Below, in pieces: positions 534 to 19,124 of a stretch of DNA of 64,000 bases. The notes below the pieces were generated by a model. It had not been told where the DNA came from. It ran no database searches and saw only the letters and a program-made list of their open reading frames with translations. Position 1 is the stretch's first letter. The number at the start of each line of letters is the position of its first letter. A program made the position numbers and the translations under genes. This stretch comes from Candidatus Uhrbacteria bacterium. GTDB taxonomy: Bacteria; Patescibacteriota; Patescibacteriia; 2-12-FULL-60-25. Where the stretch lies: contig JADZFU010000004.1 in assembly GCA_020854265.1 (NCBI GenBank), positions 310,001-374,000 on the forward strand, in the 5' to 3' direction.

Positions 534-1226
534 ATGTCCGATTCCGGAGCCGTCAGGCACCTGGCGATGATTATGGACGGCAATCGCCGCTGGGCCAAGG
601 CTCAGGGCATGCCTGCGGTAGAGGGCCATCGCGCCGGCTACAACAAAATGAAGCAGGTGGGCGATTGGTGTTTGGCGCGAGGGATCGAAATCGTCACGGT
701 GTATGCGTTTTCTACCGAAAACTGGAAACGAAGCGAAACCGAAGTCGGATTCCTCATGAGCCTGCTCGAGCACGCATTAGAAAAAGAATTGAATTATTTT
801 ACCGACCGCCAAATCCGTCTGCGGATACTCGGCCGCCGGGACGGATTTTCATCGACCATTCTTTCGCTTATCGACAAAGCAGAGGAGGCTACCAAGCATT
901 TTGAAAAAATGACATTTGCCATTTGTCTCGGATATGGCGGACGAGCCGAAATCGTGGATGCGGTAAAAGAGATTGTGGCGGAAGGCATGCAGAGCGAGAT
1001 GATCGACGAACAATCGATTGCCAAGCGGCTCTATTGGCCCAATATGCCGGATCCGGATTTGATCGTCCGGACTTCGGGAGAGCAGCGGTTGTCCGGATTT
1101 CTCCTTTGGCAAAGTGCGTATAGCGAGCTGTATTGGATCGATAAAAACTGGCCGGCTTTGGAAGAAGCGGATCTGCAAGCGGCCCTTGACGAGTTTTCCA
1201 CAAGACAAAGACGATACGGAGCCTGA
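534..1226 (+). CDS. uppS: Isoprenyl (undecaprenyl) diphosphate synthase
   Basis: This cis-prenyltransferase extends farnesyl-PP with isopentenyl-PP to make the undecaprenyl carrier for cell-wall glycans. It is 230 residues, slightly short of the usual 240-250. The signature MDGNRRWA is at residues 14-21, with Asp15 as the expected catalytic metal ligand. FSTENWKR follows at about 58-65, and the C-terminal DPDLIVRTSGEQRLSGF and SELYW motifs are present. I chose the ATG at 534 because it directly precedes the conserved N-terminal motif; the frame is open further upstream but that part is antisense to another gene. Its substrate would come from the prenyl synthase at 9057-10091 or a similar enzyme. 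Confidence 0.95.
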   Translation: MSDSGAVRHLAMIMDGNRRWAKAQGMPAVEGHRAGYNKMKQVGDWCLARGIEIVTVYAFSTENWKRSETEVGFLMSLLEHALEKELNYFTDRQIRLRILGRRDGFSSTILSLIDKAEEATKHFEKMTFAICLGYGGRAEIVDAVKEIVAEGMQSEMIDEQSIAKRLYWPNMPDPDLIVRTSGEQRLSGFLLWQSAYSELYWIDKNWPALEEADLQAALDEFSTRQRRYGA

Positions 1227-4661: not shown

Positions 4662-5048
4662 ATGTCGTGGATGACGTTAGACGGATGGTGGCTTTCGGCC
4701 CGTTTGGCCTGGAGCCGACCGTGGATGCGCTGGTCGGCAATTTTTTCGATTGCTGCAAGTGCCGGAGTGTCCATTTGGTTTCTCGCGACAACCTTGCCGT
4801 CGGTCCGACGCCACGATGCCTTTATATATCATTATAATATTTATCTTGGCATTGACGATGTCCGCGTTTGGTCCTGGGTCTTCTTTTTGCCGTCGGTTTG
4901 GTTTGCCGTTACCGTGCTTGATCTTATCGTCGCGTTTGGACTGTTTCGTTCGGATTCTTTGCTTGCGCGAGCCTTGGTCACCTTGGCTTTTGTCTGGGTC
5001 TTTCCCTGGGCGGGAGCTTTGTTCTATCTTTCCATCGTAAACTTATGA
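4662..5048 (+). CDS. Small membrane protein of unknown function upstream of mraY
   Basis: The protein is 128 residues with about three hydrophobic segments (near 25-45, 70-95 and 100-125) and many Trp. AAGGAG lies 6 nt before the ATG. Its TGA overlaps the mraY ATG (ATGA), so the two are translationally coupled and probably co-expressed in the cell-wall cluster. I do not recognise the family. Confidence 0.7.
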   Translation: MSWMTLDGWWLSARLAWSRPWMRWSAIFSIAASAGVSIWFLATTLPSVRRHDAFIYHYNIYLGIDDVRVWSWVFFLPSVWFAVTVLDLIVAFGLFRSDSLLARALVTLAFVWVFPWAGALFYLSIVNL

Positions 5049-6103
5049 CTATCGATCCCATTCTTGTTGCGAAACCGCTCGGTATTGCCGCGCTTGCATT
5101 TGCCGTTTCCGTATTGGTCATGCCCGTGCTTATCAGCGTCCTAAAGAAATACAAGATGGGCAAATCCATCCGCGATGCCGAGTCCGCCCCGATTATGGCG
5201 GCGCTACATCAAGCAAAAGCCGGAACGCCAACCATGGGAGGAATGGTGATTTGGGCAACAGTCTTTGCCATTGTCTTATCACTAGAAGGGTTATGTCAGC
5301 TTGCCGGTGCCCAAAGCGTGTTTTGCCAAGCGAGTTTTTTGTCGCGCGGACAGACCTGGCTGCCGCTCGGTTTGATGGCTGCAGCAGCTATTGTCGGATT
5401 GGTCGATGATTATTTGAACATCAGACGCATCGGAGGAGGTAAAGGCGGAGGATTGCGCGAACGCGAACGATTGTTCTCTTACGGACTTATTGCTGCAATC
5501 GGCGCATGGTGGTTTTTTACCAAGCTCGGCTGGGATCAGTTACATGTACCGTTTGTCGGAACGTACGAGATCGGCTGGCTGTATATCCCGTTTTTCCTGC
5601 TCGTGATTGTTTCAACCTCCCATTCTGTCAACGTTACGGATGGTCTAGATGGATTGGCTGGCGGCACCTTGCTCGCGACATTTGCCGCTTATGCGATCAT
5701 TGCATGGTCACAAGGCAGGTATGATCTTGCAACGTTCTGCGCGGCAATCATCGGTGCATTGCTCGGATTCTTGTGGTTCAACATCAATCCCGCTGATGTC
5801 TTTATGGGTGATACGGGAGCCATGTCGCTCGGAACTGCGCTTGGCGTGGTTGCGCTCATGACCAACCAGCCATTGCTTTTACCGCTTATCGGGCTGCCGT
5901 TTGTCTTAGAGAGCTTGTCAGTCATCATCCAGATTTCGAGCAAAAAATTACGAAATGGAAAAAAAGTTTTCAAAAGCGCACCGATCCATCACCACCTGCA
6001 GGCGATTGGCTGGAGCGAACCGAGGATAGTCATGCGTTTTTGGATGATCTCATTCGTCCTTTCGGGCGTGGGCATCGTTCTCGCTTTGATCGATTCCATT
6101 TAA
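5045..6103 (+). CDS. mraY: Phospho-N-acetylmuramoyl-pentapeptide transferase (lipid I synthase)
   Basis: An integral membrane enzyme that moves phospho-MurNAc-pentapeptide to undecaprenyl-P. It is 352 residues with about ten hydrophobic segments. Family motifs are KAGTPTMGG (58-66), the Asp pair in GLVDDYLNIRR, NVTDGLDGLAGG, FMGDTGAMSLG, and the cytoplasmic HHH loop APIHHHLQAIGW. It is followed after 4 bp by a SEDS glycan polymerase gene and then murG, so lipid I and lipid II steps are side by side. Confidence 0.97.
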   Translation: MTIDPILVAKPLGIAALAFAVSVLVMPVLISVLKKYKMGKSIRDAESAPIMAALHQAKAGTPTMGGMVIWATVFAIVLSLEGLCQLAGAQSVFCQASFLSRGQTWLPLGLMAAAAIVGLVDDYLNIRRIGGGKGGGLRERERLFSYGLIAAIGAWWFFTKLGWDQLHVPFVGTYEIGWLYIPFFLLVIVSTSHSVNVTDGLDGLAGGTLLATFAAYAIIAWSQGRYDLATFCAAIIGALLGFLWFNINPADVFMGDTGAMSLGTALGVVALMTNQPLLLPLIGLPFVLESLSVIIQISSKKLRNGKKVFKSAPIHHHLQAIGWSEPRIVMRFWMISFVLSGVGIVLALIDSI

Positions 6104-6107
6104 TCCC

Positions 6108-7232
6108 ATGAAGCTGTCGCTGCGTGAACGAGTCCTCGCTCTTGATCCGGCGATTATCGGAATCGCCGCCGGACTTCTTGTGCTCGGAGTTGCGGTACTC
6201 ATGTCGGCAACAGGTCCGGTAGCTTTCCAGCGAACAGATGATAGTTTGTATTACGTAAAAAGACAGCTTTTGCAGGGCGTAATTCCTGGAATGCTGCTCT
6301 TCCTATTTTTTTCATTGATCGATTACCGGATTCTCAAAAAATTTGCGTTTCCTATTCTGGTCGGTTGCATCGGTCTTTTGCTGCTGGTGTATGTTCCCGG
6401 CTTAGGCGTGAGGATAAAAGGTGCGCTTGGCTGGCTTGAGCTCGGACCGATCCGTTTTCAACCATCCGAATTAGTTAAGCTCGGGTTATTGATTTATTTG
6501 GCCGCTTGGTTTTCTGAACGGAAACCTGAACAGGTCAGGGATTTAAAAGAAGGCTTGCTTCCATTTATGGGGGTCGTATCAATTTTCTTCTTTCTCCTGA
6601 TTCTTCAGCCGGATACCGGTTCCATGGCCGTGGTGGTCGGAACAGCCGGCATGCTGTATCTGGCAGCAGGAGCCCCGATTTCTTGGTTTTTGCTTTTGGG
6701 GGCGGCGGGTGCTGGTATTCTGGCTTTGGTTATCAAGCTTTCCCCGTATCGAATTGCACGTTTCATGACTTTTTTGCATCCGGAGCTTGATCCGCAAGGA
6801 CAGGGATACCATATCAACCAAGCCGTGCTTGCCGTGGGTTCAGGCGGCATGATGGGTCTTGGGTTTGGAAAGTCCCGTCAAAAATACCTTTACTTGCCTG
6901 AGGTTGAGGCTGATTCGATTTTTGCCGTCATGGCCGAGGAGCTTGGTTTTATCATGATTTTAGCCGTACTCGCCTTGTATGCGGCATTTATTTGGCGGTC
7001 GTTCCAGATCGCGGGCAAGTCTCGTGACCGGTTTGGCGCGCTTTTGGCGGTTGGTATCGGCTCTTGGATTGCGATCCAAAGCGTCCTGAATATCGGCGGC
7101 ATGATCGGAATCATGCCGATGACAGGAGTTACGTTGCCGTTTGTATCCCATGGAGGTACATCCATGGCGATTTTGATCGGTGCTGTTGGACTGCTTGCAG
7201 GAATTCCCCGTTTTGCGAATGATAGATCCTAA
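6108..7232 (+). CDS. ftsW: SEDS-family glycan polymerase, FtsW/RodA
   Basis: A polytopic protein of 374 residues that polymerises lipid II together with a class B PBP. Motifs include FQPSELVKLGLL, the conserved LQPDTGSM and the loop motif GQGYHINQA. Also present are GLGFGKSRQKYLYLPE and DSIFAVMAEELGF, and finally HGGTSM. It lies between mraY and murG, which favours FtsW over RodA, though the sequence alone does not settle this. The likely PBP partner is at 47113-48933. Confidence 0.92.
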   Translation: MKLSLRERVLALDPAIIGIAAGLLVLGVAVLMSATGPVAFQRTDDSLYYVKRQLLQGVIPGMLLFLFFSLIDYRILKKFAFPILVGCIGLLLLVYVPGLGVRIKGALGWLELGPIRFQPSELVKLGLLIYLAAWFSERKPEQVRDLKEGLLPFMGVVSIFFFLLILQPDTGSMAVVVGTAGMLYLAAGAPISWFLLLGAAGAGILALVIKLSPYRIARFMTFLHPELDPQGQGYHINQAVLAVGSGGMMGLGFGKSRQKYLYLPEVEADSIFAVMAEELGFIMILAVLALYAAFIWRSFQIAGKSRDRFGALLAVGIGSWIAIQSVLNIGGMIGIMPMTGVTLPFVSHGGTSMAILIGAVGLLAGIPRFANDRS

Positions 7233-7235
7233 ATT

Positions 7236-8264
7236 ATGAAGATTGCTTTTGCCGGTGGCGGATCGCTCGGACCAGTAACGCCTTTATTGGCCGTGGCGAA
7301 TGCGATACGACGCAATACAGGAAATGGAAACATAGAATTTGTCTGGTTCGGCACGCCGGACGGACCTGAACGACAGCTGGTCGAAACTGAAGGCATACGT
7401 TTTTATCCAATCACGGTGGCTAAGCTGCCCCGCTATCCTTCGGTCCGATGGATTACGTTTTTGTTCGACGTATGGAAGGCGAGGTCAGAGGCAAGGGTTA
7501 TTCTTCAAAAAGAAAAGCCCGATGTTATAGCTTCGGTTGGCGGTTTTACTGCGGTGCCAGTCATGAAAGAGGCAAAGAAGCTCGGAATCCCATGCGCCGT
7601 ACACCAGCTTGATGCGGTTTTGAGCTGGTCCAATAAAGCGGTAGAGCGTTTTTGTGCCGTTCGCACAAGCTCGTTTGCACGCGAGGGATATGAACAGATT
7701 CCGACTCCGGCGAGATTTGGAAATACAGGATTGCTTCGCGCTGCTCGCAATGACAAGAAGAAAACGATTTTGATTGTCGGCGGCGGTACCGGTTCGGCGG
7801 CGATGAATGAAGCAATTTTATCGAGACAAGATGATTGGTCGAGAATCGCGAATATCATCCACATAACAGGAAAAGGAAAAATGGGAAATCTTGCCGAGCA
7901 CGAAGGATACTCCGTACATGAATTGCTAGGTGAAGAGGGGATGCGGCGGGCGCTTATGGAAGCGGATTTAATTATTTCACGCGCAGGGATAGGAGGATTG
8001 TCCGATATCGCTGCGTGCTCGAAAGCGGCGATCATCGTGCCGATTCCGGGAAATCAGCAAGAAGAGAATGCAAAAAGATTTGCCGAGGCTGGCGCCGCAA
8101 TAGTCGTTCCCCAGCGCGACGGATTCGCCGACGCCTTGCTTCAAGCAGCGAAAAAACTTTTGTCTGATCCGGAACAGATGGAGCTCATGGGATCAAAAGC
8201 ACACGATTTCTTCAAAACGGATGATGGAAGCGCCCTTGCACAAAAAATCTTGGATATGAAATAA
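7236..8264 (+). CDS. murG: UDP-GlcNAc:lipid I GlcNAc-transferase (MurG)
   Basis: This GT28 enzyme makes lipid II at the inner membrane face. It is 342 residues with two Rossmann-like halves. The donor-binding half is clear: GGGTGSAAMNEAIL, ISRAGIGGLSDIAACSKAAIIVPIP and QQEENAKRF. The N-terminal loop reads GGGSLGPVTP instead of the canonical GGTGGHxxP, so the usual His is absent (see findings). It is the last gene of the mraY-ftsW-murG cluster and ends inside a GC hairpin. Confidence 0.92.
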   Translation: MKIAFAGGGSLGPVTPLLAVANAIRRNTGNGNIEFVWFGTPDGPERQLVETEGIRFYPITVAKLPRYPSVRWITFLFDVWKARSEARVILQKEKPDVIASVGGFTAVPVMKEAKKLGIPCAVHQLDAVLSWSNKAVERFCAVRTSSFAREGYEQIPTPARFGNTGLLRAARNDKKKTILIVGGGTGSAAMNEAILSRQDDWSRIANIIHITGKGKMGNLAEHEGYSVHELLGEEGMRRALMEADLIISRAGIGGLSDIAACSKAAIIVPIPGNQQEENAKRFAEAGAAIVVPQRDGFADALLQAAKKLLSDPEQMELMGSKAHDFFKTDDGSALAQKILDMK

Positions 8265-8287
8265 CCCCACGCTGAGGGCGTGGGGTT
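8263..8287. terminator. Hairpin between convergent murG and unknown gene
   Basis: CCCCACGC (8265-8272) pairs with GCGTGGGG (8278-8285), flanked by AA/TT. The stop codons of both convergent genes lie in the hairpin arms. The T-run is short, so termination may be weak. Confidence 0.55.
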
Positions 8288-8663
8288 ATAGTTCGTCGAG
8301 CATCTCACCGAACATGTCCAGCAGACGATCGCGTTGAAGGGGCGTTGCGACGGGAATGTTGACGAGAGCGTGTTTTCCATCGATCCGACCGTAGATCATC
8401 CGCGTGACAGGGAAATTGAACAGTCTGCCGAGCGGAGATTTCTTTAGCGGGCGGCGGAGCTCTTCGCGGGTCAGGATAAGCAGACCGAGATCCGCTGAAG
8501 CTTCGACCATGCCCGGACGGCCCAGGTGAGGAAACCGGCGCCATCCGCTCAACTTCAGATCTCTTCTGACCAAGATGGTGCCGCTCTCGGTTGTCGAGCA
8601 AAGGCCGACATGACATGACCAGCCGATACCACTCCATCCATACTCGAAACTCACGCAGGGCAT
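8286..8663 (-). CDS. Unknown protein, second gene of a two-gene unit
   Basis: Start chosen at the ATG at 8663 (MPCVSFEYGWSGIGW...), preceded by TGAGGT about 8 nt upstream. The frame could extend to 8696. The protein is about 125 residues, soluble and mixed alpha/beta in appearance. The C-terminal half is basic-hydrophobic (PLKKSPLGRLFNFP) and the end is acidic. Its start overlaps the 3' end of the gene at 8651-8992 by 13 bp, so both are probably translated from one message. Codons are GC-rich. I do not recognise a family. Confidence 0.6.
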   Translation of the reverse strand: MPCVSFEYGWSGIGWSCHVGLCSTTESGTILVRRDLKLSGWRRFPHLGRPGMVEASADLGLLILTREELRRPLKKSPLGRLFNFPVTRMIYGRIDGKHALVNIPVATPLQRDRLLDMFGEMLDEL

Positions 8664-8992
8664 TCCGAGTACCTCAGGATCATTTCGGCAAACCATGTGC
8701 GGAGGTAGGGGTCGTCCGCATCAACGGTGACGGTCTCGGCTCCTGCGCCAGGCTGGACCGTGCCGTTGATGATGGCGCGATGGGTGACGGGCACCTCGAT
8801 GCTCGTCTTGCGCATGAGCAGGTCGAGGATCTTGCGGAGGCTGGAGCGCGGGATCATGCCCATCTCTCCGTACTCGGTTCCGTGTTCCTTGTAGAGCACG
8901 GTCAAATAGAGGAAAGGGCCGTTCCGGTGGAACCGGATCTTGATGTGCTGGCCGGTGTACAGATGGGTAAAGGTGCGACTCGTCTCATCCAT
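8651..8992 (-). CDS. Unknown protein, first gene of a two-gene unit
   Basis: The protein is 113 residues, beginning MDETSRTFTHLYTGQHIKIR. The first half looks like beta-strands and the rest is helical. No motif is recognised. Its promoter is a perfect TTGACA, 17 bp, TAAATC, and the -10 ends 6 nt before the ATG, so the message should be leaderless even though codon use is of the GC-rich accessory type. It is divergent from the carotenoid cluster across a 64-bp spacer. Confidence 0.65.
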   Translation of the reverse strand: MDETSRTFTHLYTGQHIKIRFHRNGPFLYLTVLYKEHGTEYGEMGMIPRSSLRKILDLLMRKTSIEVPVTHRAIINGTVQPGAGAETVTVDADDPYLRTWFAEMILRYSECPA

Positions 8993-8998
8993 GCGCTA

Positions 8999-9027
8999 GA
9001 TTTAGCCGAAATTCGCCATTTTGTCAA
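8999..9027 (-). promoter_or_regulatory. Promoter of the unknown two-gene unit, leaderless
   Basis: Minus strand: TTGACA (9022-9027), 17 bp, TAAATC (8999-9004), then 6 nt to the ATG at 8992. On the plus strand an extended -10, TGCTATCCT (9033-9041 region), faces the prenyl synthase gene, so this spacer is a divergent promoter region. Confidence 0.65.
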
Positions 9028-9056
9028 TGGATTGCTATCCTACTTTGCAAGCTCCT

Positions 9057-10091
9057 ATGGATATACAGGCGTTTAAAAAACGTTTTGATCCGGTTTTGAT
9101 GAAGTTTTTGGATCGGAAAATCCGTCTTTATGTAAAGCACACTTCGGATCCATTCATTTTGGAGATGATTGGGTATGCCTCAAAACTACTTTTGGCATCT
9201 GGGAAGCGCGTCAGGCCATACATGGCGGCGATGACGTACAAAGCCTCCGGAGGACGGTCCGATGCAAAAGCTTTGCCGGTTTTTGCCGGATTAGAGCTCT
9301 TTCATGCGTTTGCGCTTGTTCATGACGATATTATGGACCGCGGCGAAGAGCGTCACGGTATTCCAACCGCACATCGGTATGTAGAGCGTCGCTTGAAAGA
9401 ACAAGGCAGGACAGGGAGCGCCGCACATCTTGGAGAAGCGCAGGCAATCTTGATCGGCGACCTGCTTTTTTCTTGGGCAAATGAAACGCTGGCAGGGACA
9501 AAAGCATATCCTATTTTTATCCGGATGATCGACGAGGTGCTTACGGGCCAGATGATCGATGTGGATGTCATGACGCGCCGCTCGGTGGATGACGGATTGA
9601 TCATGGACAAGATGCGGCTAAAAACGGCTACATACACCTTTGTGCGTCCGATGCAGATCGGTGCGGTGCTTGCCGGAGCAAATGGCAAGATGGCAAAATT
9701 TTGCGAAGCGTACGGGTTGCCGCTCGGACTTGCGTTCCAGATTCAAGACGACATGCTCGATATGATTACGCCGGCACATGTCCATGGAAAAACCGCGTTC
9801 AGCGATTTACGAGACGGCCAACACACGCTTTTTACCCAGTATATTTTTTCGCACGGAACCGCATCGGAAATCCGCCAATTGCGATCCATGATGGGAGCTT
9901 CGCTTTCTGAACGGGATCGTCCGCGCGTGATCGCATTTTTTGAATCAACCGGATCACTGGAATATGGCCGTACAGTTATGAATGCGTATTTTGATGAAGC
10001 GGAACAAGCGTTAGTCAAAATGAATTTTCCGAAAAGAAAAGCACAGCCGTTTTCTGATTTGATCCAGTATATTCGCAAGCGTGCGTCTTAG
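9057..10091 (+). CDS. crtE: Polyprenyl synthase, likely geranylgeranyl diphosphate synthase
   Basis: A trans-prenyltransferase of 344 residues, first gene of the carotenoid cluster. The first Asp-rich motif is D90-D-I-M-D94 without the two-residue insertion of bacterial FPP synthases. The second is D231-D-M-L-D235. Lys/Arg substrate contacts lie in GKRVRP (49-54). Phe85 sits five residues before the first Asp motif and Ala86 four before, the arrangement that stops chains at C20 in type I (archaeal-like) GGPP synthases. C20 as product is therefore an inference. The ATG at 9057 follows an extended -10. GGPP would feed crtB next door. Confidence 0.88.
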   Translation: MDIQAFKKRFDPVLMKFLDRKIRLYVKHTSDPFILEMIGYASKLLLASGKRVRPYMAAMTYKASGGRSDAKALPVFAGLELFHAFALVHDDIMDRGEERHGIPTAHRYVERRLKEQGRTGSAAHLGEAQAILIGDLLFSWANETLAGTKAYPIFIRMIDEVLTGQMIDVDVMTRRSVDDGLIMDKMRLKTATYTFVRPMQIGAVLAGANGKMAKFCEAYGLPLGLAFQIQDDMLDMITPAHVHGKTAFSDLRDGQHTLFTQYIFSHGTASEIRQLRSMMGASLSERDRPRVIAFFESTGSLEYGRTVMNAYFDEAEQALVKMNFPKRKAQPFSDLIQYIRKRAS

Positions 10092-10094
10092 GGT

Positions 10095-10892
10095 ATGACT
10101 TCTGAGCTGCAGAGGGCGTATCGGGAGTGCCAGCGCATCCATGCCAAGCATGGGAAAAGTTACTATTTTGCCACGCGTTTTTTTCCGAAAGACCTGCGCT
10201 ATGCAACTTACGCGCTATACGCGTTTTTCCGGCTTCCAGATGAAATGGTCGACAATCCTGCGGGACGTGATCCAAAAGCGGAGCTCGAGCGGTTCCGCGA
10301 TGAATGGCGGAGCGGAGTAACTACGAATCCGGTTATCATGGCTGCGCGCGATACGTTCGAACGGTACAAGATCCCATTTCAATATTCTGGAGTTTTTCTT
10401 GATGCAATGATTCAGGATACTTGGAAAACAACGTACAGCACATATGCAGAACTCGAGCAGTATATGTACGGTTCGGCTGCCGTAGTCGGGCTCATGATGT
10501 CGCATGTGATTGGATTCAAGCCAGGAGCACTCGCGTATGCGGAGAAGTTGGGATATGCCATGCAGCTCACAAATTTTTTACGCGATATACGCGAAGACAA
10601 GGAAAAACGCGGACGCGTGTACATGCCGCAGGACGAGCTTGCGCGTTTTGCAGATGACCACGTCGCATTCATGAAATTCCAGATAGCGCGCGCAGATGCG
10701 CTTTATGACGAAGCAAACAGGGGGATTCCGCTTCTCGAAGCGCGCGGCCGGTTTGCGGTGCGCGCCGCAAGCGATTTGTACCGGGCGATCTTACGAAAAA
10801 TCGAGCAGCAAAATTATGATGTGACGCTCCGCGCGAGAACATCGTTTGTAGAAAAAATATTCATCTGTCTCCGTGCAAAATTTACCGTATGA
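10095..10892 (+). CDS. crtB: Phytoene synthase
   Basis: Condenses two GGPP head-to-head to phytoene. It is 265 residues, a squalene/phytoene synthase family member. The first Asp motif is D49-E-M-V-D53, and the second is N160-F-L-R-D164-I-R-E-D168, followed by KRGRVYMPQDEL. A dehydrosqualene synthase (CrtM, C30) is not excluded by sequence alone, but the neighbouring GGPP-type synthase, lycopene elongase-type and CruF-type genes argue for C40. The gene starts 3 bp after the prenyl synthase stop and overlaps crtI by ATGA. Confidence 0.92.
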   Translation: MTSELQRAYRECQRIHAKHGKSYYFATRFFPKDLRYATYALYAFFRLPDEMVDNPAGRDPKAELERFRDEWRSGVTTNPVIMAARDTFERYKIPFQYSGVFLDAMIQDTWKTTYSTYAELEQYMYGSAAVVGLMMSHVIGFKPGALAYAEKLGYAMQLTNFLRDIREDKEKRGRVYMPQDELARFADDHVAFMKFQIARADALYDEANRGIPLLEARGRFAVRAASDLYRAILRKIEQQNYDVTLRARTSFVEKIFICLRAKFTV

Positions 10893-12397
10893 AAAAACAC
10901 GCTGTCATTATCGGGTCGGGATTTGGCGGACTCGGCTCGGCGTGTCTGCTTGCAAAGGCAGGATACCGCGTAACCGTTTTGGAAAAAAACGAACAACCAG
11001 GAGGGAGAGCGTCCGTGTTTTCCGAACGCGGGTATACCTTTGACATGGGACCATCGTGGTATTTGATGCCCGACATCTTCGAACACTTTTTCCAGCTCAT
11101 GGGAGAAAAGGTAGAGGATCATCTCGTGTTAAAAAAACTCGAACCCTCGTACCGGATTTTTTATAAAGACGAGGACCGCACCATCGATATTTTTTCGGAT
11201 CTGGAAAAGGATATCCCGACATTCGAAATGCTCGAACCCGGTTCAGGTGCACGGCTTCGCGAGTATTTAAAACGCGCAGCATACCAATACGATGTCGCAA
11301 AAAAACGGTTCTTGTTTAAAAACTATGATTCGATTTTGGATTTTTTGAACTGGGAAACGGCGATCGAGGGCAGCCGCTTATCGGTTTTTTCGAACATGGA
11401 TTCATATGTGAGGAAGTTTTTCAAGACACCGGCCGTGCAAAAAATCATGCAATATACCCTCGTGTTTTTGGGGAGCTCGCCCTACAACACGCCAGCGCTG
11501 TACAACATTATGAGCCACATCGATTTTTCGATGGGCGTATTTTATCCGCAAGGCGGGATTTACGAATTGGTGAAGGCTTTGGTCCGGATTGCCGAGAAGC
11601 ATGGAGCGGTTGTCCGTACGCATGCCGATGTTGCGCGGATACTTGTTGAAAAGGGGACGGCAATAGGCGTTGAGCTGGTCGGGGGAGAGCGTATCGAGGC
11701 GGATATCGTGATTTCAAATGCGGATATGGCTTTTACCGATCTCCAGCTTTTGCCGGAAGAGTCGCGAGTAAAGGACGAGCGGTATTGGAAGTCGCGGACG
11801 CTTTCTCCGTCAGCATTCATCATGTACCTAGGTATTGATGGACGGGTTCCGGAGCTCACCCACCATAACCTTATTTTTTCGAAAGATTGGAAAAAGAATT
11901 TTTCCGAAATTTTTGACAACCCCCAGTGGCCGGATGATCCGTCATTATATATTTGCGCACCCAGCATTACCGATCCGAACGTCGCTCCGGACGGCAAAGA
12001 AAATCTGTTCGTGCTTGTGCCCATTGCTCCGAATCTTTCGGATGCGGATGAACAATTGGAACTGTACGGAGAAAAAATTTTACAAATGCTGGAGACAACT
12101 TTGCGTATTCCGAACCTGCGAGAGCGGATTGAATACAAGAAATTCTTTAGCGTGAAAGATTTCAAGCAGAGATACAACAGCTTTGGCGGTTCGGCGCTTG
12201 GTTTTGCACATACGCTTACGCAGACCGCAATTTTCCGGCCAAATAACGTGAACCCGAATGTACGGAATCTCTATTACGCCGGTGCAGGCACGAATCCGGG
12301 AATCGGCATGCCGATTTGTCTCATCTCGGCCGAACTTGCGTACAAGCGTATCGTGGGCGACAAAAGCAGCGGACCGCTTACCTCGTTGCAACGATAA
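10889..12397 (+). CDS. crtI: Phytoene desaturase, CrtI type
   Basis: An FAD-dependent desaturase of 502 residues that converts phytoene to lycopene. The dinucleotide motif GSGFGG (9-14) sits in an N-terminal Rossmann fold with Glu32 ending strand 2 (VLEKNEQPGGRA). DMGPSWYLMP near 52-61 is typical of CrtI. The C-terminal FAD motif is NLYYAGAGTNPGIGMP. No second crtI/crtD-like gene is visible in the window, so this enzyme may also do 3,4-desaturation, or crtD lies elsewhere. It overlaps the convergent prenyltransferase gene by 20 bp. Confidence 0.94.
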   Translation: MKKHAVIIGSGFGGLGSACLLAKAGYRVTVLEKNEQPGGRASVFSERGYTFDMGPSWYLMPDIFEHFFQLMGEKVEDHLVLKKLEPSYRIFYKDEDRTIDIFSDLEKDIPTFEMLEPGSGARLREYLKRAAYQYDVAKKRFLFKNYDSILDFLNWETAIEGSRLSVFSNMDSYVRKFFKTPAVQKIMQYTLVFLGSSPYNTPALYNIMSHIDFSMGVFYPQGGIYELVKALVRIAEKHGAVVRTHADVARILVEKGTAIGVELVGGERIEADIVISNADMAFTDLQLLPEESRVKDERYWKSRTLSPSAFIMYLGIDGRVPELTHHNLIFSKDWKKNFSEIFDNPQWPDDPSLYICAPSITDPNVAPDGKENLFVLVPIAPNLSDADEQLELYGEKILQMLETTLRIPNLRERIEYKKFFSVKDFKQRYNSFGGSALGFAHTLTQTAIFRPNNVNPNVRNLYYAGAGTNPGIGMPICLISAELAYKRIVGDKSSGPLTSLQR

Positions 12398-13280
12398 ACA
12401 AGAACAGCGCAGTGCCGGCAGCCGTGTTGATCCATGGGAATAGCTTGTAATATCCAAACAACTCCTTGTCTGTTTTGGTTTTTAGCGAAAGTGCGATGAG
12501 CAAGAGGTAAACGGCACCGAGCGCGTACCCGAGCCATCCGAGGGCATGCGAAGAGAGGAGGACAGAACCGGCATACATGAATGCGCACAGCCACAATGTG
12601 CGGGATTTTCCGAGAACGGTTGCGATGGTTTTTAATCCCGCAACGGTGTCTGCTTTTATGTCCGGAACTGCACTGTACGCGTGCATGGCTATGCACCAAA
12701 GCGATGCGGCGAGTATAAGCTTCCAATCTGGCTGAGTGAAAGGCGAGAGCAGAGAGAATATAAAAAGCCCAGGGAGGATGTAGAGGATATTTGATGCGCT
12801 ATCGAGAAATGGACGTGCTTTGGCGCGGATCGGGGGAGCGGAGTAGGAGAATGATAATAGGTAGAACAAGATGAATATGCTCATCGCGGATGCGAATTGC
12901 AGAGGAGCGGTTGGATGACTGGCGCGTGAATAGAGAAATACGAGATAGACGAATATGGGAATTTGCCAAAGCAGAATCCAAATCCATGCGCGGGGATGGT
13001 CAATCGATTCAAGACGCGCTTCGTAGGAAGACTTTTTTTCGTTCAGGCGATCCGTTTCTTCGTCGAAAATATCATTTACCCCATACAAGAATAGATTGGC
13101 GGGGAAGGAAAAATGAAATAAAAATGGCAGGACAACCAAAAGGATTGGATAATAGTAAAGCGGGAAGGCTTCGACGATGCCTTCCACGGAAACAAGGCCG
13201 ATGAGAAATGGTCCCGTCAGATATATCCAAAATCTTGGACGGCTCATGCGGAAGATCCTTTTAAGGCCAAGTCCATGCAT
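12378..13280 (-). CDS. UbiA-family prenyltransferase, probable lycopene elongase
   Basis: A polytopic membrane protein of 300 residues. The two Asp-rich motifs of UbiA enzymes are N69-D-I-F-D-E-E-T-D77 and D207-I-K-A-D211, with SYSAPPIRAKAR before the second. It lies between crtI and a CruF homologue, the neighbourhood seen for LyeJ/CrtEb-type enzymes that add C5 units to lycopene to make C50 carotenoids. That role is inferred from context; other UbiA substrates (quinones, chlorophyll-like, archaeal lipids) have no supporting genes here. A -10 (TATATC, 13285-13290) lies 4 nt before the ATG. Confidence 0.85.
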   Translation of the reverse strand: MHGLGLKRIFRMSRPRFWIYLTGPFLIGLVSVEGIVEAFPLYYYPILLVVLPFLFHFSFPANLFLYGVNDIFDEETDRLNEKKSSYEARLESIDHPRAWIWILLWQIPIFVYLVFLYSRASHPTAPLQFASAMSIFILFYLLSFSYSAPPIRAKARPFLDSASNILYILPGLFIFSLLSPFTQPDWKLILAASLWCIAMHAYSAVPDIKADTVAGLKTIATVLGKSRTLWLCAFMYAGSVLLSSHALGWLGYALGAVYLLLIALSLKTKTDKELFGYYKLFPWINTAAGTALFLFIVATR

Positions 13281-13284
13281 ATCC

Positions 13285-13292
13285 GATATACT
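13285..13292. promoter_or_regulatory. Shared divergent -10 region for prenyltransferase and cruF-like genes
   Basis: GATATACT reads as TATACT on the plus strand (13287-13292, 11 nt before the ATG at 13304) and as TATATC on the minus strand (13285-13290, 4 nt before the ATG at 13280). The two -10 boxes overlap by four bases, so the divergent carotenoid genes probably compete for polymerase. No -35 is evident on either side. Confidence 0.5.
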
Positions 13293-13303
13293 AGCCGAGT
13301 CGT

Positions 13304-13963
13304 ATGAAGTACGAAACTGGCTGGATAGTAGCGGGAGCTATCACAATGGCAGTGATCGGTTTTATGGCTGATCAGCAAGGTTTTAAGCAGCAGCCTGGCT
13401 GGATTTCGGTTTTAGCTATTTTATTACTGGCTACACCGTCATGCTGGGCATTCATGAAATATACGGGATACAAAAAAGGGTTACTTGTCTTGGCGTGTTT
13501 GTCCGTTTTTGCGATTTTGATCGAAACTATTGGCGTGGCCACGGGATTTCCGTATGGATCGTTTACCTATTCGGCGGATTTAGGCTGGAGAGTATTTGGG
13601 CTTGTTCCTTGGACGGTGCCGTTTGCTTGGGTTCCGCTCTTGATAGCGTCTGCAGCTCTTGCGTCATATTTTGCAAAACAAAAATTATCAAGAATTTTTT
13701 TGGCTGCGATGTTTTTAGTATTGATGGATCTTGTATTGGATCCCGCGGCAGTGCATGCCGGACTTTGGAGCTATCCTGCTGGCGGCTGGTATTTTGGCGT
13801 GCCATGGACGAATTTTGCCGGCTGGATGTTTTCCGGTATTTTAGGCGCTTCGATTCTGGCGTTGTTTGATGCAGACGATTTACCCATGCAGGGGATGATC
13901 GTAAGTGCGGCGCTGATGCTCGCGTTCTGGTCCGGCGTTCTTGTGCATGCCGGATTGACGTGA
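13304..13963 (+). CDS. cruF: Carotenoid hydratase, CruF/DUF422 family
   Basis: The protein is 219 residues with about seven hydrophobic segments. Two blocks typical of the family are visible: LIETIGVATGFPYGSF and LVLDPAAVHAGLWSY followed by GGWYFGVPWTNFAGWM. Family members hydrate the psi-ends of linear carotenoids (1',2' positions) or, in haloarchaea, the C50 chain ends to give bacterioruberin. Beside a lycopene elongase-type gene the C50 role is more likely; this is inference. The stop codon lies inside the promoter of the downstream glutaredoxin gene. Confidence 0.88.
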   Translation: MKYETGWIVAGAITMAVIGFMADQQGFKQQPGWISVLAILLLATPSCWAFMKYTGYKKGLLVLACLSVFAILIETIGVATGFPYGSFTYSADLGWRVFGLVPWTVPFAWVPLLIASAALASYFAKQKLSRIFLAAMFLVLMDLVLDPAAVHAGLWSYPAGGWYFGVPWTNFAGWMFSGILGASILALFDADDLPMQGMIVSAALMLAFWSGVLVHAGLT

Positions 13964-13983
13964 AATGAATAATCTGTTAATTT
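13955..13983 (+). promoter_or_regulatory. Promoter of glutaredoxin gene
   Basis: TTGACG (13955-13960), 17 bp, TAATTT (13978-13983). The -35 is within the last codons of the cruF-like gene. The Shine-Dalgarno GGAGGA (14003-14008) follows. Confidence 0.65.
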
Positions 13984-14015
13984 CGATCGCGCTCGTTTTT
14001 TTGGAGGAACAAGAT

Positions 14016-14273
14016 ATGGCCGAGATCCGCATGTACATGAAGGCGCGCTGCCCTTACTGCAACTTGGCGGAGCAGATGCTCCGCGACAACGGAGCCGTGG
14101 AGATCGTCAAGGTTCACGTGGACCACGACGAAGAGTCCGAGAAGCACATGAAGCAGAAGCTCGGTACGAGCCAGGTGCCGCAGTTCGTCATCGGTGAGCG
14201 CCACGTCGGCGGATTCGACGAACTGGCGGCGATGAAGCACAGCGGCGAGCTCAAGCAGCTCCTTGCCGGCTGA
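14016..14273 (+). CDS. grxC: Glutaredoxin
   Basis: A thioltransferase of 85 residues with the redox active site C12-P-Y-C15, TSQVPQFVIGERHVGG (cis-Pro and glutathione-binding loop) and a short C-terminal helix. It would use glutathione or a similar thiol in the cytoplasm. The start is the ATG at 14016, 7 nt after GGAGGA. It is a single-gene unit with its own promoter and terminator and with strongly GC-biased codons compared with cruF upstream. Confidence 0.95.
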   Translation: MAEIRMYMKARCPYCNLAEQMLRDNGAVEIVKVHVDHDEESEKHMKQKLGTSQVPQFVIGERHVGGFDELAAMKHSGELKQLLAG

Positions 14274-14474: not shown

Positions 14475-16541
14475 GTGAACGTCACGCATGCGCGCCAGGG
14501 TCGGATCGATCAGATCAACAAGTACGGCATCATCCTCGCCTTGGGGATCACCCCGCAGAAGGCCAAGGAGGACCGTCACATGACGCTTCTCCTGGACTGT
14601 TCCGGATCGATGGGGAGCATCATCAGCGAGCTGCGCCGCGACGCGGAGAAGTTCGTCGCCGAGCTCGACACGAAGACCTTCGTGTCGGTCATCGTCTTCA
14701 GCGGCCACGGCCGTGCCAGGACGATCGCCGGACCGACGCGCTGCGACGAGAGCGGCCGCAAGATGGTCATCCAGGCCATCCAGGACAACGTGCACATCAT
14801 GGACGTCACCGTCTTCTCGGAGCCGCTCGAGCTCGCGCTCAAGACGGTGCAGAAGATCGCGAACGACGCCGACAACCAGGTGACGCTCTTTACGGACGGC
14901 TGTGCCGTCCCCACCAAGTGGGATGTGAAGAAAGAGCAGAGCAAGGCCGAGGCGGCCGCGCGCGCCATCGCCAACACCGGTGCCGGGTTCTCGGTCATCG
15001 GCTACGGCACGTGGTACGACGCCGATTTCCTCGGTCGCCTGATGGCGGAGACCGGCCACAACGGCCTGTACCGCCACATCAGCGAGGTCGAGGACTTCAG
15101 CGCCGCGATCAACGAGATCCGCATGACCTTCGAGAAGACGGTCCGCGGATCGGTCGACGTCGCCATCAAGCCGAACGAAGGCAAGATCAGCCGCTTCGTG
15201 CGCGTCACCCCCGAGGTGGCGATGACCGAGGGCAGCCACTTCACGTCGAGTGCCTTCTTCAACGGCGAGGCCACGCTCTTCATCGAGACGAGCAAGGAGG
15301 TCAAGACCGTGAAGATCGATGGCCGAGTCAACGGGAAGGACTTCAGCGAGACCGTCTCGCTGAAGGCCATGACCGACGATGACAAGGTCTCGTTCATCCG
15401 CGCGTACGCTGCCCAGGCGACGATCGCCGGCGAGAACAGTACGGCTGCGGAGTACCTCGAGTTCACCGGTGACAGCGGGCTCGCCGAGAAGGTGGGCAAT
15501 GCCTACACCGACCGCGAGAGCCGCGAGGCGAAGGACGTGATGCGCCGCGTCTTCACGGACGGCAAGCGCTTCATCGGGACCGGCCTCAAGCCGGTCGGTC
15601 CGAACCACTCGGTCTTGAACGTCCTCCGCGTCCTCATCGAGGACAAGGGCTCGGTCCTGTACATCCCCAAGGGCGCCTACAAGCGCGGCGGGGAGCTCAC
15701 GGTCGATCCGGCCGTGCTGCAGGGCAGCGGCGAGCGCACGCTCGAGGTGCTCGACATGATCAGCACGGAAGATCGGTTCAACTTCTCGCTCCGCACCACC
15801 AAGGACGTGAAGGTCCTGCCGCGCGACGAGAAGGGCGAGGTCATCGCCAACGCGACGCCGGAGAACAAGAAGGTCTACAGAACGTACAACGTGATCAGAG
15901 ACGGCAACCTCGTGTTGCCGGAGCTCGACGCGCGCCTCTCGCAGGAGTCGTTCGACCTGCTCGTCGAAGCGGGCGTCATCAAGGCCGGTACCAAGTACGA
16001 GGCCGCGAAGACCTACACGCTCAACCTGCGCGACCTGAAGTTGATCTCCCCGGCGTGGGCCAAGCCCGCGACGCTGGGTCTGGTCAGCCTGATGCGTCAG
16101 GAGAAGGACCTCGAGGCCGCCCAGAAGGCGCTCAACGCGCGCAAGAAGGAGCTCGTGGCCGGCGGCTACAAGCCCAAGGCCGACGAGGAGTCGGAGTTCT
16201 ACCGCGAGCAGTCCAAGAAGGACGAGGCGCGGGAGACCGACACCTACACCGCGACGACGGTCGAGCTCCGTCTGATGAAGTACGAGCCGAAGGCCTTCGA
16301 CGCGTCGGCGCTCTCGTGGGAGGAGGCGAATGAGCTCGTGAAGGAGACTCGCCGCGATCTCTCGATCGTCCGGTTCAAGATCCGAGCCACGACCTTCGCC
16401 ATGGAGCGCTGCAAGAAGCAGGCGTCGATCAAGTGGAGCAACCCTAAGACGACGGCCAAGGGCACGATCGAGCAGATGGCCGACTTCGACGGTGCCAAGC
16501 TCAAGCGTGCCGAGAAGACGCAGACCTTCATCTGCTCGTGA
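14475..16541 (+). CDS. Large von Willebrand factor A domain protein
   Basis: The protein is 688 residues with no signal peptide or membrane segment, so probably cytoplasmic. A VWA domain occupies about residues 35-220. It has a complete MIDAS first motif D41-C-S43-G-S45 and LFTDGCAVP as the later Asp loop. Next comes a beta-rich region of about 100 residues (TVRGSVDVAIKPNEG...), then a mostly helical, charged C-terminal half rich in Lys and Glu. It starts at GTG with GAGGGA 6 nt before. No MoxR ATPase or kinase lies beside it. Lys is almost always AAG and Glu GAG, in sharp contrast to the next genes. The role is unknown; VWA domains usually bind protein partners through a metal. Confidence 0.8.
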   Translation: MNVTHARQGRIDQINKYGIILALGITPQKAKEDRHMTLLLDCSGSMGSIISELRRDAEKFVAELDTKTFVSVIVFSGHGRARTIAGPTRCDESGRKMVIQAIQDNVHIMDVTVFSEPLELALKTVQKIANDADNQVTLFTDGCAVPTKWDVKKEQSKAEAAARAIANTGAGFSVIGYGTWYDADFLGRLMAETGHNGLYRHISEVEDFSAAINEIRMTFEKTVRGSVDVAIKPNEGKISRFVRVTPEVAMTEGSHFTSSAFFNGEATLFIETSKEVKTVKIDGRVNGKDFSETVSLKAMTDDDKVSFIRAYAAQATIAGENSTAAEYLEFTGDSGLAEKVGNAYTDRESREAKDVMRRVFTDGKRFIGTGLKPVGPNHSVLNVLRVLIEDKGSVLYIPKGAYKRGGELTVDPAVLQGSGERTLEVLDMISTEDRFNFSLRTTKDVKVLPRDEKGEVIANATPENKKVYRTYNVIRDGNLVLPELDARLSQESFDLLVEAGVIKAGTKYEAAKTYTLNLRDLKLISPAWAKPATLGLVSLMRQEKDLEAAQKALNARKKELVAGGYKPKADEESEFYREQSKKDEARETDTYTATTVELRLMKYEPKAFDASALSWEEANELVKETRRDLSIVRFKIRATTFAMERCKKQASIKWSNPKTTAKGTIEQMADFDGAKLKRAEKTQTFICS

Positions 16542-16731: not shown

Positions 16732-17850
16732 ATGCGCATCCATATCATCGGGAGTAAGGGTATTCCGTCGTCCTCCGTACCTGGGGCCGGCGGTATTGAG
16801 CGTCATGTCGAGCAGCTTGCGAAAGGTCTATCCGAAAAGGGAAACCGGGTTTTTGTGTATACGCGTTCCCACTCGGAATATGACAAATTAACGTGGAATG
16901 GAGTCCGCTTGATCCGTTTGCCGTCAATCCGGACAAAAAATTTGGAAGCGATTTCGCATACGTTCCTTTCGACATTACATGTCCTGTTCCAAGACACAGA
17001 CATTATTCACTATCATGGAGTCGGACCATCAACGCTGGCGTGGATACCGCGTTTGTTTAAAAGAAAAGCAAAAACCGTTTGTACATTCCATAACCGCGAT
17101 TGGTTTGATTCAAAATGGTCCAAACCGGCAAAACTGTACCTGCGTTTTGGCGAATGGTGCGCCGTCCGTTTTCCGCATGCCACTATCGCCGTATCACATA
17201 CGATCCAAGTTTTTTGTCGGACGAAATTTAAAAAAGAAGTACATTACATTCCAAACGGAGCCGACATGCCCGGCCCGCAAGGCACGTCCGAGCTAGCCGC
17301 ATTCGGTCTTGAGCCGAATAACTATCTCCTGGGTGTTGGCAGGCTTTTGCCGCGGAAAGCTTACGATATCGCGATTGAGGCATATCGCCGCGTACCCGGA
17401 GACATGCCGCTGGTCATTGTAGGAGAAGCAACGCATGAAGGCGATTACGCGGAAAAATTACATGCGCTTGCTGCGAAAGACCCGCGCGTACGGTTACTCG
17501 GTTATCAAAGCGGGCAGGCACTCAAGCAGCTGTTCGCGCATTGCTATGCGTTTGTCCATCCGTCTCAAGCCGAAGGACTCTCGGTTTCTATCATCGAGGC
17601 GATGGCATCGGCCAAAGTCGTGATTATGTCGAATATCGAAGAAAATCTAGAACTGGTTGATCATAGCGGTCTCGCATTTGAAACCGACAATATTGACGCC
17701 CTTCGGAAAGCATACGAACTTGTTTTGTCAGATCCGGAAATGGTTGAGCAGCGCGGCAAGCGTGCTCGCGAGGTTGCGCGGCGGGAGTACTCATGGTCGC
17801 GGGTTATAGACAAGACGGACGCATTGTTTAAAGATCTGATCCAGACATGA
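16732..17850 (+). CDS. Glycosyltransferase, GT4 family
   Basis: The protein is 372 residues with a GT-B fold. The N-terminal acceptor domain starts MRIHIIGSKG with the GAGGIERHVEQLAKGL loop. The donor domain has GVGRLLPRKAYDIAIEAY and the GT4 signature FVHPSQAEGLSVSIIEAMAS with the E-x7-E motif. The acceptor sugar or lipid is not predictable. I start at the ATG at 16732 because the frame upstream runs through the terminator and tRNA. It overlaps murD by ATGA, with a WecG-type gene after that, so it may help to build a cell-surface glycan. Confidence 0.88.
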   Translation: MRIHIIGSKGIPSSSVPGAGGIERHVEQLAKGLSEKGNRVFVYTRSHSEYDKLTWNGVRLIRLPSIRTKNLEAISHTFLSTLHVLFQDTDIIHYHGVGPSTLAWIPRLFKRKAKTVCTFHNRDWFDSKWSKPAKLYLRFGEWCAVRFPHATIAVSHTIQVFCRTKFKKEVHYIPNGADMPGPQGTSELAAFGLEPNNYLLGVGRLLPRKAYDIAIEAYRRVPGDMPLVIVGEATHEGDYAEKLHALAAKDPRVRLLGYQSGQALKQLFAHCYAFVHPSQAEGLSVSIIEAMASAKVVIMSNIEENLELVDHSGLAFETDNIDALRKAYELVLSDPEMVEQRGKRAREVARREYSWSRVIDKTDALFKDLIQT

Positions 17851-19124
17851 ATGTTTTGATTTTAGGGCTGGGCCAGTATCCAAAAGGCAGCGGAGTCGCT
17901 GCGGCTTTGCATTTTGCAAAGGCAGGGGATCAAGTCATCGTGACCGACTTGAAATCGCGGAAAGAGCTTGCCGGCAATGTCAAACAGCTTTCCAAATATA
18001 AAAACGTACAGTTCCACCTTGGCGGACACGATCCCGAAGATATCGCATGGGCACATTTGATCGTGCGCGGTCCGAGTGTCCGCAGCAGCTCCAAAGAGAT
18101 GAAGCTGGCTCGCAAACTCGGAAAATCTGTCACAAGCGATCTTGCGCTCTTCTTGGAGGCTTGCCCATGCCCGGTGATCGGAATTACAGGTACGCGCGGA
18201 AAAAGCACTACGACGAAAATGATTCATGAGGTGCTGTGGGGTTCCAAGAAATGGCGCGAAGTCTGGCTTGGAGGAAATATTTTGGTTTCTCCACTCACGT
18301 TTTTACCGCAAGTGAAGGCGAGTGACTTGGTCGTTTTGGAGATGAGCAGCTTCCAATTGGAGGCAACGGGCGAAGCGGGTATATCGCCGCATATTGCCGT
18401 TTGGACCAATCTTATGCGCGACCACCTGAACATGTATCCGAGTATGGTCGAGTATGCCGAGGCCAAGGCGCAGATTTTTCGACACCAGAGACCGGATGAT
18501 TTTGTGCTATTACCGGCCAATAAGTCGTTCAATATGTATGCCAAGGAAGCCCCGGGAAATGTCATACGCGTCAAACAGGAAAAATTTGCATTGTCGATTC
18601 CAGGCGAGCACAACCAGATGAATGCGAGCTTTGCAGCGGCCACGGCAGCATTGCTAGGCGTCCCTTTATCCAAAACAAAATCCATACTCAAAACGTTTAA
18701 AGGGCTGCCGAACCGTTTTGAGACGATTGCCGCAAAAAAAGGCGTCACGTTTATTAATGATACGACGGCGACAACTCCAGACGGAACGCTCGCAGCGCTC
18801 CGTTCAATACAGCCATCAAAAGCAGCGATACACCTTTTATTCGGGGGCGCGGATAAAGAATTGGATTTCAAGGAAGTCGCTTCGTATCTCAAGAAACGCA
18901 AAGACGTGAAGACCTATCTTTTATCCGGGACGGCCGAGGCAAAAATAAAGAGGGCGGGGATTAAAGGTCATTGGTATAAAACGTTTCCGGAAGCGTTTAA
19001 TGCCATTCATCCAAACAAAGGCGACATCGTATTGCTTTCGCCAGGGTGTGCCAGCTTTGGCATGTTCAAGAACGAGTTTGACCGCGGCGAACAATTTCGT
19101 GCTTTGGTAAAAACGTGGAAATAG
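17847..19124 (+). CDS. murD: UDP-N-acetylmuramoylalanine-D-glutamate ligase
   Basis: Adds D-Glu to UDP-MurNAc-L-Ala. It is 425 residues with the three Mur-ligase domains. The first is an N-terminal Rossmann domain (NVLILGLGQYPKGSGVA). The ATPase P-loop is GITGTRGKSTTTKMI, with LEMSSFQLE and NLMRDHLNMYPS later in that domain. The C-terminal domain contains NDTTATTPDGTLAAL and LLFGGADKELDF. LSPGCASFGMFKNEFDRGEQF closes it and is diagnostic of MurD. It is coupled to the GT4 gene upstream and closely followed by the WecG/TagA-type gene. Confidence 0.95.
   Translation: MNVLILGLGQYPKGSGVAAALHFAKAGDQVIVTDLKSRKELAGNVKQLSKYKNVQFHLGGHDPEDIAWAHLIVRGPSVRSSSKEMKLARKLGKSVTSDLALFLEACPCPVIGITGTRGKSTTTKMIHEVLWGSKKWREVWLGGNILVSPLTFLPQVKASDLVVLEMSSFQLEATGEAGISPHIAVWTNLMRDHLNMYPSMVEYAEAKAQIFRHQRPDDFVLLPANKSFNMYAKEAPGNVIRVKQEKFALSIPGEHNQMNASFAAATAALLGVPLSKTKSILKTFKGLPNRFETIAAKKGVTFINDTTATTPDGTLAALRSIQPSKAAIHLLFGGADKELDFKEVASYLKKRKDVKTYLLSGTAEAKIKRAGIKGHWYKTFPEAFNAIHPNKGDIVLLSPGCASFGMFKNEFDRGEQFRALVKTWK

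Follow-up and report, generated by a model that had tools for sequence, protein, structure and literature searches.

The closest described counterparts of the gene cluster analyzed here are the haloarchaeal operons for bacterioruberin, an acyclic C50 carotenoid. The cluster, crtE-crtB-crtI-ubiA-cruF, occupies bp 9057–13963 of a 64,000-nucleotide stretch of DNA, the window, from contig JADZFU010000004.1 of a Candidatus Uhrbacteria bacterium (assembly GCA_020854265.1). The haloarchaeal operon consists of crtI/crtD (C0507), lyeJ, and cruF, and is found in Haloarcula japonica and on plasmids of Halocatena and Halarchaeum. The same three enzyme types are adjacent in the window. In addition, the window's CrtI is 47% identical to that of Halocatena, and its UbiA shares a clade and the motif SRPRFW with the haloarchaeal proteins. 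There are differences. The haloarchaeal operon runs in one direction throughout and has crtE outside it, whereas in the window ubiA is convergent and crtE and crtB are joined to the cluster. The window's CruF is also shorter, i.e., 219 amino acid residues versus ~280 in the haloarchaeal proteins.

Among bacteria, the Blastocatellia and Pyrinomonadaceae have crtB-crtI-(ubiA)-cruF loci of the same order, with crtI and ubiA tail-to-tail and UbiA proteins 41–45% identical to that of the window. These bacteria have much larger genomes and, unlike the window, usually carry crtE elsewhere. In the bacterioruberin cluster of Arthrobacter agilis and in the decaprenoxanthin clusters (CrtEb), a gene for a UbiA-type lycopene elongase lies beside carotenoid genes, as it does in the window. 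A. agilis differs in having a separate crtD, and the decaprenoxanthin clusters in having heterodimeric cyclases, homologues of which were not found in the window's genome.

Closest in taxonomy are the lyeJ, crtD, and cruF genes of Patescibacteria from Lake Baikal, which belong to the same phylum and predict the same pathway (Haro-Moreno et al. 2023, PMC9948471). Those genes are spread over different reads or lie far apart, whereas in the window all five are packed together, and the genome is near-complete. A sequence-only reading of the window had called such a pathway unexpected in a genome of this type. That view does not hold, given the 2023 report and the at least 29 further loci of the Candidate Phyla Radiation (CPR) that carry UbiA and crtI. 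Genes for the pathway had already been reported in Patescibacteria. What is new is that the genes are intact and contiguous, that their convergent layout is conserved, and that they occur together with C5 auxotrophy.

The Five-Gene Cluster

We think it likely that the window contains an intact cluster for an acyclic bacterioruberin-type C50 carotenoid, fed by isoprenyl units that are probably imported. The source is a near-complete Ca. Uhrbacteria-type genome of the Patescibacteria (CPR), 1.0 Mb in size and estimated to be 100% complete. The window sits on a 428 kb contig, C4, and the genome-wide searches reported below covered 999,741 bases, all but ~3 kb of the genome.

The first gene, crtE (bp 9057–10091, plus strand), encodes a type I trans-prenyl synthase of the geranylgeranyl diphosphate (GGPP) type (polyprenyl_synt, PF00348, E 2e-46), the sole PF00348 protein of the genome. 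Its residue F85 is at position −5 relative to the first aspartate-rich motif, DDIMD (residues 90–94), and among the 33 crtE relatives scored, 26 have F or Y at this position. Next is crtB (bp 10095–10892, plus strand), encoding the genome's only member of the phytoene synthase family (SQS_PSY, E 5e-61), with both Asp-rich motifs. crtI (bp 10889–12397, plus strand; Amino_oxidase, E 6e-35) overlaps crtB by 4 bp and encodes a phytoene desaturase of the CrtID clade. The ubiA gene (lyeJ-like; bp 12378–13280, minus strand), whose product belongs to the UbiA family (PF01040, E 8e-13) and is a predicted lycopene elongase, runs toward crtI and shares 20 bp with it at the 3′ ends. It is divergent from cruF (bp 13304–13963, plus strand; Caroten_synth/DUF422, PF04240, E 1e-43, 149.8 bits), with 23 bp separating the two starts. 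Pfam and NCBIfam back all five assignments. The sequence-only reading had listed the same five adjacent open reading frames (ORFs) and the same enzymes, including F85 ahead of DDIMD and a UbiA with both Asp motifs; that list proved right, although it left out the minus-strand position of ubiA.

The five genes are intact and not decayed. When compared with relatives taken from loci holding both ubiA and crtI, every column conserved at ≥90% is kept: 51/51 in UbiA, 23/23 in CruF, 104/104 in CrtI, 29/29 in CrtB, and 29/29 in CrtE. The ratio of amino-acid to synonymous change, pN/pS, is 0.27–0.61, i.e., amino-acid changes are fewer than synonymous changes, the latter being saturated. The base composition of the cluster is like that of its neighborhood.

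CrtI, CruF, and the Predicted Product

CrtI scores 637.2 bits on NF058655, the model for the bifunctional phytoene/3,4-desaturase CrtID (cut-off 640), and its same-genus relative scores 649.0. In the CrtI tree, the LyeJ-linked CrtIs and haloarchaeal CrtID are on one side of a branch with SH-aLRT support of 100. On the opposite side are the desaturases of Pantoea, Thermus, Thiodictyon, Staphylococcus, and alphaproteobacteria, including CrtN/CrtP. Among plasmid-borne CrtI-type proteins, that of the haloarchaeon Halocatena is the nearest, and the other records listed are at most 35% identical. An enzyme of the same type, C0507 of Haloarcula japonica, has both phytoene desaturase and 3,4-desaturase activities, and bacterioruberin-producing bacteria with a single crtI exist (PMC11946383). 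Since CrtI falls in the haloarchaeal CrtID clade and single-crtI producers are known, no separate crtD is needed. A second CrtI/CrtD-like desaturase was not found in the ~1.0 Mb searched, the other PF01593 members being PPOX-like or far weaker. The suggestion in the sequence-only reading that crtD is lacking and that CrtI may be bifunctional fits these results.

A divergent pair of genes for FAD proteins at bp 67023–69735 of contig C4 was considered for crtD and rejected. One member is of the protoporphyrinogen-oxidase type, and the other, of 493 residues, is a distant and weak CrtISO/CrtI-like protein (48.9 bits).

On TIGR03460, the best of three CruF models, CruF scores 144.0 bits (cut-off 154.7), compared to 167 for the CruF of Halocatena. 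The two models for bisanhydrobacterioruberin hydratase give 144 and 115 bits versus 70 bits for GCarotHydoxCruF, the γ-carotene 1′-hydroxylase model. On these scores CruF is classed with the bisanhydrobacterioruberin hydratases. Homologues of cyclases were not found in the ~1.0 Mb with Pantoea CrtY, Arthrobacter CrtYe/Yf, and the Thermus lycopene-cyclase-domain protein as queries, in keeping with the linear product foreseen from the window alone. We predict bacterioruberin or a near C50 relative as the most probable product, its exact identity being inferred.

CruF is not a constant partner of LyeJ. Within the class, LyeJ scores above its cut-off in eight genomes; four of these also have CruF (the window's genome, G391, G072, and G478), and the other four lack it (G394, G629, G504, and G648). 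LyeJ genomes without CruF would end the pathway at bisanhydrobacterioruberin.

An unlikely alternative, though one to be taken seriously, is that the product is an asymmetric C45 or less hydrated C50 carotenoid resembling flavuxanthin, nonaflavuxanthin, or bisanhydrobacterioruberin. UbiA would then act on one end only or without hydration, and CruF on a C40 end, like the γ-carotene 1′-hydroxylases. The flavobacteria with a related tail-to-tail crtI-ubiA arrangement are relatives of Jejuia, which makes the C45 carotenoid 2′-isopentenylsaproxanthin and has a lycopene elongase gene beside that for phytoene dehydrogenase (PMC4256183). The uneven occurrence of CruF also suits this alternative, as does the CrtI from the Arthrobacter CrtEb-type cluster, a long-branched member of the larger CrtI clade. 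However, the CruF scores favor a bisanhydrobacterioruberin hydratase, the cyclase queries retrieved nothing, and the N-terminal SRPRFW of UbiA is common to the crtI-linked haloarchaeal LyeJ proteins and is not found in the crtI-remote haloarchaeal paralogues or in the Arthrobacter CrtEb-type protein.

UbiA as a Probable Lycopene Elongase

Both UbiA Asp motifs, NDIFDEETD and DIKAD, are present and conserved. The protein scores 225.8 bits on the NCBIfam prenyltransferase model PRK12875 (cut-off 205) and at most 41 bits on the NCBIfam ChlG, UbiA, and DGGGP synthase models. In a tree of 91 UbiA sequences, the window protein is among crtI-linked UbiAs of CPR bacteria, Acidobacteriota, Armatimonadota, actinobacteria, and haloarchaea, and the members encoded by haloarchaeal crtI-lyeJ-cruF operons are in this same LyeJ clade. 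E. coli UbiA, MenA, and CyoE, together with two UbiA-family paralogues from haloarchaea, fall outside, on branches of 6.6–10 changes per site. The deep branching order within the LyeJ clade is weakly supported. A single UbiA sequence searched against genome contigs retrieved nothing, whereas an alignment of CPR and haloarchaeal UbiAs used as the query did, and relatives were not found in viral contigs. From its family placement, UbiA is probably a LyeJ-type C5-transferase acting on lycopene, with 1,2-hydratase activity.

It is very improbable that UbiA is instead a quinone or membrane-lipid prenyltransferase that by chance lies beside carotenoid genes. The UbiA superfamily is broad, this is the sole UbiA-family member of the genome, and ubiA is on the strand opposite the crt genes, all of which might suggest such a role. 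But the tree groups UbiA with lycopene elongases and far from quinone and lipid prenyltransferases, as the LyeJ/CruF logic of the sequence-only reading called for, and its tail-to-tail linkage with crtI is kept across phyla. Moreover, the E. coli UbiA and MenA queries gave no phmmer match to the window UbiA, men genes were not found in the genome, and no ubi genes were found beyond weak UbiE-like methyltransferases. CrtI-type enzymes hand electrons to O2 or quinones. Having no quinone synthesis, the cell would need oxygen or borrowed quinones to run the pathway.

Genomic Setting

The cluster lies between mraY-ftsW-murG (bp 5045–8264, plus strand) and murD (bp 17847–19124, plus strand), the latter directly preceded by a gene for a GT4-type glycosyltransferase, as in G384. 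The left flank is conserved in G072 and G384. In G072, which is from another genus of the same family, crtE immediately follows the mraY-ftsW-murG block, and in G384 crtE and a cruF-like gene lie between murG and murD. Because of this position and these matching flanks, contamination is very unlikely. The same cluster is also present on a 9110-bp contig of the same-genus genome G391 (CAIXDN010000006.1, ‘Candidatus Uhrbacteria bacterium isolate Kiruna3_bin-2585’), and its layout is repeated in G391, in G072, and in G375, of a distant family. The guess of a reduced, CPR-type genome made from the window was thus correct. A non-functional cluster or assembly contamination might be argued from the missing C5 pathway, from G390, the other same-genus genome, in which carotenoid genes were not found, and from the decayed ubiA of G705, but the placement in a 428 kb contig, the fitting composition, the retention of all conserved residues, and the pN/pS values make this explanation highly improbable.

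Several neighboring features are recorded here. The murG–crtE gap of ~790 bp, absent in G072 and G384, contains overlapping minus-strand ORFs (bp 8286–8992), and the one tested, bp 8654–8992, had no Pfam match. A glutaredoxin gene (bp 13965–14273) is immediately 3′ of cruF and possibly co-transcribed; it was not found beside the cluster in relatives. Farther right, bp 14475–16541 encode a VWA-domain protein, with a GC content of 0.63 compared to ~0.52 around it.

Many genomes of the same family (loci L054–L064: G380, G381, G382, G384, and G403–G411) have a longer CruF-like DUF422 protein, of 270–300 residues. Its gene adjoins crtE in G381 and G382; the neighbor of crtE in the murG–murD interval of G384 is a shorter relative. 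At the DUF422 locus of G381 and G408, the flanking genes encode a ClpB/C-like protein and an RsmI-type methylase. Most of the DUF422-bearing genomes tested have no phytoene synthase. A carotenoid substrate is therefore unlikely for this branch, and another function may apply.

Supply of C5 Precursors

The genome encodes two users of isopentenyl diphosphate (IPP), CrtE and the undecaprenyl diphosphate synthase UppS (domain at bp 555–1223, plus strand, within the ORF at bp 72–1223), and thus uses IPP. IspH (PF02401), HMG-CoA reductase (PF00368), and GHMP kinase (PF00288) were not found in it, the expected control genomes being positive, and each model likewise found nothing in the related genomes to which it was applied. 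GHMP kinases were absent from all 10 LyeJ-bearing CPR genomes tested, which belong to several families. E. coli Dxr, IspG, IspD, and IspF and Thermus Fni gave no significant phmmer match in the 999,741 bases, a search that recovered the controls UppS, HisS, LysS, and Frr. A dxs-like match (L248) was rejected as Dxs, since a model of the C-terminal half of transketolase fits it best. A Nudix match (L241) scores 48.9 bits on YfcD versus 41.7 bits on IDI, and is a possible, though unproven, IPP isomerase.

The carotenoid route is complete from C5 units onward only. The ‘complete’ pathway of the sequence-only reading thus stands downstream of C5, and not for C5 synthesis itself, for which no methylerythritol phosphate (MEP) or mevalonate pathway was found. 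Consistent with this, most classes in a survey of CPR bacteria from fresh water appear capable of C10–C20, but not C5, isoprenoid synthesis (PMC9166423). Because no MEP or mevalonate pathway is recognizable, isoprenyl units are probably taken from a host or neighbors. The simplest reading is uptake of IPP and dimethylallyl diphosphate, of prenyl diphosphates, or of prenols.

Distribution and Layout

The distribution of the cluster is sporadic. The PRK12875 cut-off is exceeded in 8 of 381 genomes of the class, and PF04240 has a match in 18 of 380 genomes of the phylum. The tail-to-tail crtI/ubiA arrangement is found in 24/29 other CPR loci, in 20/20 loci of Acidobacteriota, and in 12/12 flavobacterial loci examined, whereas every archaeal locus is co-directional. 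Vertical descent of CrtI across the CPR is rejected, as monophyly has an approximately unbiased test probability (p-AU) of 1.3e-6 on a quick tree. It follows that the cluster moved between phyla.

All 20 acidobacterial loci include cruF, and nearly all crtB (Pyrinomonadaceae, Blastocatellia, and Chloracidobacterium; L104–L124 and others). The bacteria carrying these crtI-ubiA-cruF loci are predicted to be producers of bacterioruberin-type carotenoids. A paper tying bacterioruberin to this group was not found in the literature collection searched.

A different organization is seen in the distant CPR genome G373 (L037, bp 7073–12538), where a co-directional operon contains ubiA, cruF, crtB, and two desaturase genes. 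One desaturase is in the Pantoea/Thermus CrtI clade and the other in the CrtID/CrtD clade, i.e., CrtI and CrtD are separate.

Proposed Pathway and Implications

We propose the following pathway. Isoprenyl diphosphates or alcohols from a host or neighbors would be the feedstock, and CrtE would make GGPP from C5, C10, or C15 diphosphates. CrtB would join two GGPP to form phytoene, which CrtI would desaturate to lycopene, later introducing the 3,4 double bonds. UbiA would add a dimethylallyl (C5) unit to each lycopene end and hydrate the 1,2 bond, following LyeJ logic. Hydration of both new C5 tails by CruF would complete red bacterioruberin, or leave the mono- or bisanhydro form if CruF is slow.

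Several points weigh against this pathway. Haloarchaeal paralogues encoded away from crtI score 222–229 bits on PRK12875, as high as the window's 225.8, and the score alone is thus no proof of a lycopene substrate. UbiA and CruF are only 42–48% identical to their nearest relatives. CrtI is 3 bits below the CrtID cut-off, and CruF 11 bits below that of TIGR03460. Lastly, no transporter for isoprenoid uptake, kinase, or other salvage gene was identified.

The carotenoid would likely serve to order and protect a membrane of largely scavenged lipids. The sequence is compatible both with an ordering of the membrane and with protection against oxidation, each a plausible role, and does not favor either. 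In Arthrobacter, bacterioruberin reportedly helps cells grow at low temperature (PMC9122864), and a role in the membrane has been suggested for Patescibacteria living in cold deep water (PMC9948471).

In place of the earlier, scattered report there is now a conserved cluster of five intact genes, which can be cloned and tested as a unit and whose crtI/ubiA layout is common to Patescibacteria, Acidobacteriota, and flavobacteria. The cluster raises the question of why a 1 Mb genome without a C5 pathway retains five genes to make so costly a C50 pigment, and of where the C5 units come from. We offer tentatively, as a possibility we lean slightly away from, that a C5-less symbiont builds a membrane-spanning C50 carotenoid wholly from host isoprenyl diphosphates or alcohols, as a stiffener among scavenged lipids. 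If true, such a supply would reveal an unrecognized route of isoprenoid salvage in Patescibacteria. Isoprenoid salvage and the membrane composition of CPR bacteria thus become directly testable.

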